DNA of 64,000 nt from Methanosarcina mazei S-6 (GTDB lineage: Archaea; Halobacteriota; Methanosarcinia; Methanosarcinales; Methanosarcinaceae): NCBI RefSeq assembly GCF_000970205.1, contig NZ_CP009512.1, positions 3,906,001-3,970,000 of the forward strand, in the 5' to 3' direction. The notes below the pieces were generated by a model that worked only from the letters and a program-made list of their open reading frames with translations, had not been told where the DNA came from and did not search any database. Below are positions 47,136 to 49,705 of this stretch, piece after piece. A program made the position numbers and the translations under genes. The first letter of the stretch is position 1. Each line of letters begins with the position of its first letter.

Positions 47136-47586
47136 GGTCCAGGCTTTTTATTTTAAAGAGGCAGTCCAGGCCGACTACTAATCAGTTATCGAGCTTGGAC
47201 AGCTTAAGTCCTCATTTTCGAAATTGATAAACTTAAACTGATTTTGTTCTTAACCTGACATTTTCATACTTAACAGCTGTATGTATCCAGAATTATATTT
47301 GGTAATTATCTTTTTTAAAGATTTTATTATCTTCTTAAACCGGCTTGAAACGAATTGCTGGAATAAAACGACTGATGTTGTTTTCAGAAAAGACAGATAT
47401 GATTTAAATAAGTATTAAGAGATATTTAAAAGATATTTACAGGATATTTAGAGAATATTTAGAGAATATTTAGAGAATATTTAGAGGATATTTAGAGGAT
47501 ATTTAAGAGATAGACTTAAAATATAGATTATTTTAGGTTTTGTCAGTTAAATCAGAAAAACCGTACGAAATTAGATGTGAGGAAAA
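47136..47586. other. Intergenic region with tandem repeat
   Basis: About 450 AT-rich bases. The second half contains the 12-bp tandem repeat at 47420-47512. No gene recognised in the rest. Confidence 0.5.
47420..47512. repeat. 12-bp degenerate tandem repeat
   Basis: Seven or eight head-to-tail copies of GATATTTAGAGA or AATATTTAGAGA variants, ending 75 bases before the radical-SAM-like gene. Confidence 0.85.
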
Positions 47587-48801
47587 ATGACTCCTGAAAA
47601 AAAGAATGTGCCGGACTTCCCCACAAAAAATAAGAATATAGAAATTTTCTCCATGCCAGGGCTGTCTGTAAACCTTCAGCAGCGTGAAGGAATGACCGTA
47701 AAACTTACGGCACAGGGGACTCTGAAATCCGCCTGTATCCCTGTACTGAAAAAGATGAACTCACGCTTACAGGAAGAGAAACCGGCACTTGTACAGGAAG
47801 ACAGCTTCATTCCCTCAGCCTGGCTTCCTCCCATACCCGGACCTGCTTTTAAACGGCTTATTTTCGCAGAAGTCCAGATAGCTCTGGGAAAATATATTCC
47901 TGAAACCGTTACCATTGAAATTACCCGCCAGAACAGTTCAAGGTACCCCCCAGGAGCGGTCGCTGACGAACTGGATACAGACACAATTAAAAGAGTAATA
48001 GATGAAGCGCTGGACCTTGGCACATTAATTATCAGTTTTACCGAGAATGACCCCCTGCTGAGGGAAGAGATCTTTGAACTTATTGAATATGTGGACAAAA
48101 AACGCGCTATAGTTAACTGTTCTACATGGGGTACGGACTTCACAAAAGAAACTGCTCTCCGTTTGAAAAAAGCCGGACTTCACTCCCTCATGGTCGGCGT
48201 TTATTCGACTGACCCCCAGAAGCATGATGCGGTCCGAAAATCCGAAGGCTCGTACGATCGGGCGATATCAACCATAAAACTGGCTCTTGAAGCAGGGCTT
48301 CTGGTTGTTATGACAACTCACGCCTCTCCTTCAAACATGAAAGAACTTCCCGCTCTCTATGCACTTGCATCGGAACTTGGGGTTCATGAATTTTCAGTCT
48401 GGGAATCAATGCCGAAAAGAAAAGGAGAGTCTGTGATTACTGACAGAGACAGAAGAGCAATCCTTGAAATGTATCACAGGATTAATTCTGCCCCGGAAGG
48501 CCCTCGAATGTTTTCAAATACTTATTTCGAAGGGCAGATGATGGGTGCGATGGCAGGCAGGCGCTGGATGCATGTGACCGTAGACGGAGACGTAAAACCA
48601 AGCCCTTATCCCCCATTCAGGTTCGGAAATGTTAAAGAAGTACCCTTAAAAGAAATCTGGCAGAGGATCAGAAGTTATCCTTATTTCCAGAGGCAGAAAA
48701 ACCTCAGTCCCATGCACGACCCTGAGTTTATGGAATTTGTCGATAAAATTCCAGAGGAGGCAAAACTGCCCTATCCTTTTGAAAAGATTTGCGAGAAATA
48801 A
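47587..48801 (+). CDS. Radical SAM/SPASM-like protein lacking cluster cysteines
   Basis: 404 residues with the overall pattern of a radical SAM enzyme with a SPASM-like C-terminus: TVTIEITRQ (strand 1, 108-115), DELDTDTIKRVIDEALDLG, TLIISF, NDPLLREEIFELIEYVDKK, ALRLKKAGLHSLMVGVYS, HDAVRKSEGSYDRAISTIK, and DGDVKPSPYPPFRFGNVKE plus a final MHDPEFMEF. However the CxxxCxxC loop is replaced by QNSSRYPP (115-122), the GGE motif by TEND (152-155), and the SPASM cysteines by serines (SP at 339-340 and LSP at 373-375). The whole protein has only Cys50, Cys178 and Cys402, so it cannot bind the usual [4Fe-4S] clusters. A binding or regulatory role without radical chemistry is inferred; it is intact and clearly not a pseudogene. 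The first 90 residues are an extra N-terminal region. Confidence 0.8.
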   Translation: MTPEKKNVPDFPTKNKNIEIFSMPGLSVNLQQREGMTVKLTAQGTLKSACIPVLKKMNSRLQEEKPALVQEDSFIPSAWLPPIPGPAFKRLIFAEVQIALGKYIPETVTIEITRQNSSRYPPGAVADELDTDTIKRVIDEALDLGTLIISFTENDPLLREEIFELIEYVDKKRAIVNCSTWGTDFTKETALRLKKAGLHSLMVGVYSTDPQKHDAVRKSEGSYDRAISTIKLALEAGLLVVMTTHASPSNMKELPALYALASELGVHEFSVWESMPKRKGESVITDRDRRAILEMYHRINSAPEGPRMFSNTYFEGQMMGAMAGRRWMHVTVDGDVKPSPYPPFRFGNVKEVPLKEIWQRIRSYPYFQRQKNLSPMHDPEFMEFVDKIPEEAKLPYPFEKICEK

Positions 48802-48876: not shown

Positions 48877-49299
48877 TCATTCAGTAGATAAATCCTGAGC
48901 TAATAGTCCCTTAACTTCCTGTAAAAAGGATTTAAGAGTCTTAAGATCATTTTGCAGGATTCCATATACCTGATCAAAGTCTAGCTGCCAGTATATGTGG
49001 ACAAGGACATTTCTGAACCCGGCCAGGTCCGAGAGCTCTTCAGCGAGTTCCTCTGAGATAAGTCCTGCCTGCCCTAATATTTCGAAAGTCTCTCTGTATG
49101 TTGCAGGCTTTCCCAGCCCCTCTTTAGCTATCAAACTGGTAGCTATATCTATAGCAGCCTGGATACTGACCAGCATGGCGTGAAGAACCATATTCCTTTT
49201 ATCTCTGTCTTTCTTCAGGTCTTCCAGCGATATATTCTGATATCTTTGCCAGTCTTTCTGGGATTCATCAAGCTCTCTTAAATGGGCAAGTATTCTCAT
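48877..49299 (-). CDS. hepT: HepT-like ribonuclease toxin
   Basis: 140 residues from ATG 49299, which follows the mntA stop after one base (an ORF extends 10 codons upstream into mntA, unlikely to be used). HEPN/DUF86 fold, all helical, with the catalytic RxxxxHxY at Arg96, His101 and Tyr103 (FRNVLVHIYW). HepT cuts RNA and is silenced by the partner nucleotidyltransferase. The pair with mntA is a two-gene toxin-antitoxin operon. Confidence 0.9.
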   Translation of the reverse strand: MRILAHLRELDESQKDWQRYQNISLEDLKKDRDKRNMVLHAMLVSIQAAIDIATSLIAKEGLGKPATYRETFEILGQAGLISEELAEELSDLAGFRNVLVHIYWQLDFDQVYGILQNDLKTLKSFLQEVKGLLAQDLSTE

Positions 49300-49300
49300 T

Positions 49301-49705
49301 TTAGACCCTCGCCAGGAATTCCTTATCAATCAAATCATACATATACTTCAGGTCCAGATAAGTCGAGATAACCTCAGATTCGTAATCTATCCTGCTGGAT
49401 TCGTCTCTGGAGAAGATAACACGTCCTTTTTTGATGACCTCAAACTGTAACTCTATCGGGGAATTATTTAGTATTTTTACATCAAATTCAAATCTGGGCT
49501 TTATCTGTCTTTCCAGTTCACCCGCTACTTTTAAAGAGAATTTAAGGCTTTTATAAGAATCTAAGCTTTCAGACAGGAGCAGAGCTACATCGATATCATT
49601 GAAATCTTCTTTTTCAAGAAATGACCCGAAGATATAGACTGTATTTACTTCTTTCAATCCGGCTAAAATCCTGCTTATGTCTGCCAGAAATGAACTCTTA
49701 TCCAT
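49301..49705 (-). CDS. mntA: MntA-like minimal nucleotidyltransferase antitoxin
   Basis: 134 residues of the minimal nucleotidyltransferase family. The signature is GSFLEKEDFNDIDVALL: Gly27-Ser28, then Asp37 and Asp39; there are eight residues between GS and DxD rather than the usual ten. A third Asp is in FEFDVKIL. In studied systems MntA adds AMP to HepT at its active-site Tyr and so neutralises it. First gene of the pair, one base before hepT. Confidence 0.88.
   Translation of the reverse strand: MDKSSFLADISRILAGLKEVNTVYIFGSFLEKEDFNDIDVALLLSESLDSYKSLKFSLKVAGELERQIKPRFEFDVKILNNSPIELQFEVIKKGRVIFSRDESSRIDYESEVISTYLDLKYMYDLIDKEFLARV

Follow-up and report, generated by a model that had tools for sequence, protein, structure and literature searches.

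The gene examined here, designated P, is located at positions 47587 to 48801 on the forward strand of the window, a 64,000-nucleotide stretch of Methanosarcina mazei S-6 (contig NZ_CP009512.1, positions 3,906,001 to 3,970,000). Its reading frame is intact, beginning with an ATG at 47587, just 5' of which GTGAGG is found, and ending with a stop codon at 48801; it encodes 404 amino acids. An AT-rich tandem repeat with units of roughly AGAGAATATTT is present at positions 47425 to 47515, in the long intergenic region 5' of P. In Methanosarcinaceae, P lies between the genes for aIF2-beta and TrpRS. In the window, a HEPN-like gene (150 aa) and a minimal nucleotidyltransferase gene (134 aa) adjoin each other on the reverse strand between P and the TrpRS gene (48877-49705); they look by eye like a typical HEPN/MNT toxin-antitoxin pair, which is missing there in the related loci compared. 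A conserved neighbor had been proposed as a possible clue to function, but comparison of the P loci in Methanosarcinaceae revealed neither a P-specific neighbor nor a pathway neighbor. The telling neighbors were those of two paralogues, A and B, and those of P outside the class Methanosarcinia.

A preliminary description had presented P as a radical SAM/SPASM-like protein devoid of all Fe-S cysteines, and alignments with cysteine-bearing paralogues and orthologues bore this out. P contains exactly three cysteines (C50, C178, and C402), none of which (0/3) is at a cluster position. The radical SAM cysteine columns correspond to N116, Y120, and G123, and the former [4Fe-4S] site reads NSSRYPPG (residues 116-123, 47932..47955, forward strand) in place of CxxxCxxC, in agreement with the QNSSRYPP pointed out previously. 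The columns of the SAM-binding GGE motif are E153-N154-D155, within F-T-E-N-D-P rather than F-D-G-G-E-P; the stretch T152 to D155 (48040..48051, forward strand), TEND, does stand where GGE is expected. The auxiliary-cluster cysteines are also absent from the SPASM-like region (48547..48708, forward strand), where their columns are occupied by A321, S339, and S374, and T331 occupies the column of one further cysteine seen in cysteine-bearing P orthologues. The serines reported at the C-terminal cysteine positions were thus found at two of the four columns, the other two being alanine and threonine.

The domain layout traced earlier was recovered by profile searches. Pfam Radical_SAM (PF04055) matched residues 126-255 with 61.1 bits (cut-off, 29.5; E-value, 1.9e-16), and SPASM (PF13186) matched residues 323-368 with 26.6 bits (cut-off, 21.5). 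Many NCBIfam profiles matched below their cut-offs, the best being AhbD (112 bits against a cut-off of 500), followed by NirJ2 (99.5 against 500). An AF2 model of P (mean pLDDT 82) showed the partial-barrel fold of SPASM enzymes when compared with SkfB (6efn; Foldseek E-value 1.5e-14; VIA-align Z 22.3, rmsd 3.6 over 278 residues) and PqqE (6c8v; VIA-align Z 21.9). The loop of residues 116-124, which is the former first-cluster site, was the sole internal segment of the model with a pLDDT below 50. Because the Pfam scores exceed their cut-offs and the fold matches crystal structures, the homology is not due to chance. P is a true radical SAM/SPASM homologue in which the fold has been kept and the cluster ligands are gone.

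Methanosarcinia genomes encode three paralogues of this family, namely P and the cysteine-bearing A and B, both of which have CxxxCxxC and GGE. In the M. mazei S-6 genome, A (G000:C1:627014-628219) and B (G000:C1:255077-256198) share approximately 36% identity with P, and a cysteine-bearing paralogue, whose existence had been considered beforehand, was thus found twice. Matches to the P family were obtained in 198 of the 238 Methanosarcinia genomes, mostly exactly three in each. In a tree of 99 sequences, P, A, and B were separate. P-like proteins of other Halobacteriota classes fell in the P clade, and there the cysteine-less P of Methanosarcina was nested within cysteine-bearing P. The first 90 residues of P had been called an unassigned extra region. 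They still match no known fold, since an AF2 model of residues 1-104 alone (pLDDT 71) had no PDB match at E < 1; however, the region is not confined to P. Residues 1-101 (47587..47889, forward strand), predicted as strand-strand-strand-helix and then a further helix, are common to A and B, and the matches of the own-genome paralogues begin at residues 14-17 of P. The strand-strand-strand-helix layout had also brought to mind an RRE/PqqD-like peptide-binding domain, which is a possible reading but gained no match in the same PDB search.

The CxxxCxxC motif was kept in P orthologues of other Methanosarcinaceae, Methanotrichaceae, and other lineages, including other Halobacteriota classes. Most P orthologues accordingly keep the cluster cysteines. 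Cysteine-less P was represented by 47 sequences from Methanosarcina (g1) and the genera g4, g5, g6, and g8, and the loss is fixed there but not across Methanosarcinales, contrary to what had been envisaged. It had also been considered that homologues might mostly retain CxxxCxxC, this copy being a single degenerate gene. The first part holds for the family as a whole, whereas a lone degenerate copy is ruled out by the 47 sequences from several genera. At the position of GGEP, P proteins with or without cysteines had (T/A)EGDP, those of Methanosarcina had TENDP, and A and B had GGE. The cysteine-bearing orthologues already carry EGDP, and therefore the change in the SAM motif predates the loss of the cysteines. 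Exceptions were EGEP in one sequence from outside the class (L165) and TGGDP in a very divergent P-like protein of group f6 (L171:5800), which has CTANCPMCGH and forms an extremely long branch. Another P-like fragment, at L170, has EGDP.

Two independent losses of the cysteines were favored at first by a quick tree. However, Methanosarcina and g6 were joined at 99/98 in a marker tree built without P (A, B, and four marker proteins), and the two cysteine-less lineages were joined at 98/96 in the full P tree with all columns; the P tree without the trait columns was undecided (AU p 0.18 for one clade). On the strength of the marker tree and the full P tree, one loss is preferred to two, and a single event, in the common ancestor that Methanosarcina shares with its nearest genera, is the most likely history. 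Position 181 of P (48127..48129, forward strand) was Trp in 47 of 47 cysteine-less P sequences, Pro in 26 of 26 cysteine-bearing P sequences of the class, and Ser in A and B; F185, A78, P86, and T331 were also largely common to the 47. In radical SAM proteins, position 181 comes after the third strand, near the SAM site. It is therefore reasonable to suppose that the vacated cavity was probably repacked in cysteine-less P, by Pro181Trp and other changes.

P was found in all 31 Methanosarcina genomes searched and was intact in nearly all of them. Pairwise dN/dS values within the genus ranged from 0.06 to 0.14 for P and from 0.05 to 0.10 for A; the value for B was 0.08. These results support the view, already taken from the open frame, that P is intact and constrained and is not decaying. 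Decay of P in Methanosarcina could be argued from the disappearance of all cofactor cysteines and from one genome (G152) in which a stop or a frame break interrupts the gene close to its end, but it is largely refuted by the presence of P in 31 of 31 genomes and a dN/dS of about 0.1, and we consider it highly improbable. The retention of P without clusters at such dN/dS values, together with Trp181 in every cysteine-less copy, argues for a kept, non-radical role.

Such a role might itself be catalytic. E153, D155, and H245, which are specific to P, were invariant or nearly so in both cysteine-less and cysteine-bearing P, and Y206 was kept in all class members compared; these residues leave room for catalysis without radical chemistry. 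P would in this case still perform a step of the pathway discussed below, its barrel with a substrate/SAM site acting as a lyase, an isomerase, or a binding enzyme, and a constraint on P close to that on A fits such a role. However, G154 of the motif has been replaced by N in Methanosarcina, the whole former cluster loop was modeled with low confidence, and the Pfam and NCBIfam searches matched no known non-radical catalytic family. Catalysis by P is judged unlikely.

The genomic context of the paralogues was informative. A was located directly 3' of the geranylfarnesyl-diphosphate (GFPP) synthase gene, and in the same orientation, in all 70 Methanosarcinaceae and Methanotrichaceae genomes in which both genes were compared, with a gap of −6 to 259 bases. 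In the M. mazei S-6 genome, this pair lies 5' of the ATP synthase operon (L103:4872-7220; G000:C1 about 625.9-628.2 kb), and the synthase matched NF040627 over its cut-off and PDB 3ipi at 1e-188. GFPP synthase is the sole published methanophenazine-specific enzyme (PMC3017947, PMC8546582). A literature search on MA0607/MM_0790 returned unrelated papers only. B was the last gene of a strand-wise run of a UbiA prenyltransferase gene, a GGR-like FAD reductase gene, and B itself (L104:6069-9503, reverse strand) in 6 of 9 loci, and this run is kept in Methanosarcinaceae. The lipid enzyme DGGGP synthase is encoded by another gene elsewhere (L196; 405 bits against a cut-off of 296), so the UbiA protein of the B run is not the lipid DGGGP synthase. 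Because the prenyl chain of methanophenazine is partly saturated, a reductase beside B fits.

In some genomes A also lies near heme genes and the ATP synthase genes, the heme genes being found beside it in several Methanosarcinaceae. This arrangement, along with AhbD and NirJ2 being the best curated profile matches of P, would suit a protein of a tetrapyrrole pathway (heme b or heme d1-like). The AhbD score of P is nevertheless far below the cut-off, and a true AhbD (622 bits) is encoded by a neighboring gene in one A locus with heme genes. Moreover, P, A, and B are absent from the probable genomes of Methanoperedens, a lineage with abundant cytochromes. A tetrapyrrole role for P is very unlikely on these grounds.

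Outside the class, the P-like gene itself is found in company. In the Halobacteriota groups f12, f16, f18, and f22, it was clustered with an A/B-like gene, a gene for a fourth radical SAM protein (D), and a GGR-like gene. A third A/B-like gene belonged to the same cluster in f12, f18, and f22, and most of these loci also included a UbiA-like gene and a gene for an NMT1/SsuA-like protein; in f16, the corresponding third A/B-like, UbiA-like, and NMT1/SsuA-like genes formed a separate locus. The clusters (L161-L167, L173, and L174) are compact and comprise at most three radical SAM genes of the SPASM type, another radical SAM gene that is PTO1314-like, a GGR-like gene, a divergent UbiA-like gene, and the NMT1/SsuA-like gene, whose product has no obvious signal peptide at its start. 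They constitute a candidate pathway for a lipid electron carrier. The SBP-like gene c2 of these clusters was rejected as a pathway member, as the Methanosarcinia genomes tested contained no close orthologue (21-27% identity). Orthologues of D (51-60% identity) and close matches to the GGR-like gene were each detected in 6 of 6 tested genomes with P, A, and B, whereas only weak family matches to D and weaker ones to the GGR-like gene were obtained in three genomes with MqnC. The Methanosarcina orthologue of D is located beside ribosomal protein genes (L213:5578-6711, reverse strand; G000:C1 about 365.6-366.7 kb), and D had no pathway neighbor in Methanosarcinia.

The distribution of the trio of P, A, and B was then compared with that of MqnC as a marker of menaquinone. 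Of the 238 class genomes, 33 had an MqnC match exceeding the cut-off, all of them in groups f2 and f5 (g25 and g26), and none of these 33 was among the 198 genomes with the trio. Outside the class, the four lineages with the cluster had no MqnC over the cut-off, and f10, f11, and f21 had MqnC and no trio. One genome otherwise without the trio (G308) contained a B-like gene (L175:6208, contig C36) that is almost the same as the one in G034 and probably lies on a misbinned contig. Methanophenazine has been reported in Methanosarcinaceae and probably occurs in ANME-2a/b/c, and menaquinone has been reported in ANME-1 and Methanoperedens. We infer that g25 corresponds to Methanoperedens and that f3 and f4 correspond to ANME-2, f3 possibly to ANME-2a/b. 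Presence in methanophenazine users and absence from menaquinone-using relatives is thus a pattern that holds for the trio, over few independent clades. The f3 genomes, in which the trio is present, had no GFPP synthase match at 1e-60, and the trio also occurs in lineages of unassigned carrier; the product of the pathway may therefore vary.

In Methanosarcina, P itself is unlinked to GFPP synthase; A is linked to it in 70 of 70 genomes, and outside the class P shares its clusters with A/B-like genes, D, and the GGR-like gene. On the basis of this context, in which A accompanies GFPP synthase and B accompanies UbiA and GGR-like genes, a role for P in the pathway of methanophenazine or a similar lipid carrier is strongly suggested. 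Recruitment of P in Methanosarcina to an unrelated role, such as a regulator or a chaperone, with the pathway tie gone, would agree with its chromosomal isolation in Methanosarcinaceae and with the loss of all cofactor ligands. It is hard to reconcile, however, with the finding that P accompanies A and B in virtually every genome, both where the cysteines are kept and where they have been lost, and with a P-specific motif that is largely unchanged, and we consider it rather improbable.

The explanation that we prefer, with a probability of roughly one half (0.52), is as follows. P, A, B, and D would be an ancient set making a membrane electron carrier, which in Methanosarcinales would be methanophenazine. 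The SAM motif of P would have been altered first (EGD for GGE), with the cluster cysteines kept in most orthologues. All cluster cysteines would then have been lost in the common ancestor that Methanosarcina shares with its closest genera, with probable repacking of the cavity. Thereafter P would have been retained as a partner protein of A or B with no catalytic activity, serving as a scaffold or an activator or holding a hydrophobic intermediate; such a partnership in Methanosarcina is plausible. Both the product, methanophenazine, and the non-catalytic subunit are put forward here from comparison of genes and genomes. A more specific form of this explanation is offered tentatively: P, A, B, D, the UbiA protein, and the GGR-like protein might together be the long-missing pathway to methanophenazine, with radical SAM chemistry in place of PhzA-G enzymes building the ring or its prenylated precursor and with cluster-less P as an obligatory non-catalytic subunit in Methanosarcina.

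Methanophenazine is the respiratory electron carrier in the membrane of Methanosarcina and probable marine methane-oxidizing relatives, and the gene context described here yields a small set of candidate genes for its biosynthesis in genetically tractable organisms. P also offers a clean evolutionary case, in which a metalloenzyme fold shed its clusters, most likely once, gained Trp at a single, fixed site, and has been maintained by selection; the cysteine-bearing P orthologues in sister genera allow direct comparison. No account of the P branch, of the mapped loss of its cysteines, or of its tie to methanophenazine genes was found in a literature search of incomplete coverage, and a search of the same kind on pseudo-radical SAM proteins yielded nothing relevant.

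Methanophenazine biosynthesis is undeciphered apart from the prenyl-chain step catalyzed by the C25 prenyl synthase (PMC8546582, PMC6315138), encoded by MM_0789/MA0606, and the immediate 3' neighbor of this gene is paralogue A of P. Cluster-less radical SAM relatives are a recognized kind, since NCBIfam holds a curated pseudo-SAM/SPASM family of Halobacteria under that name (TIGR04347, pseudo_SAM_Halo). P scored 77.8 bits against the TIGR04347 cut-off of 525 and matched AhbD better; it represents another branch with cysteine-bearing orthologues of its own. With PqqE (6c8v), SkfB (6efn), and AhbD/NirJ, P has the fold and the domain order in common, as well as significant profile matches. In contrast to these enzymes, P lacks CxxxCxxC, GGE, and the auxiliary-cluster cysteines, and its N-terminal region is distinct, being common, among the sequences examined, only to paralogues A and B.
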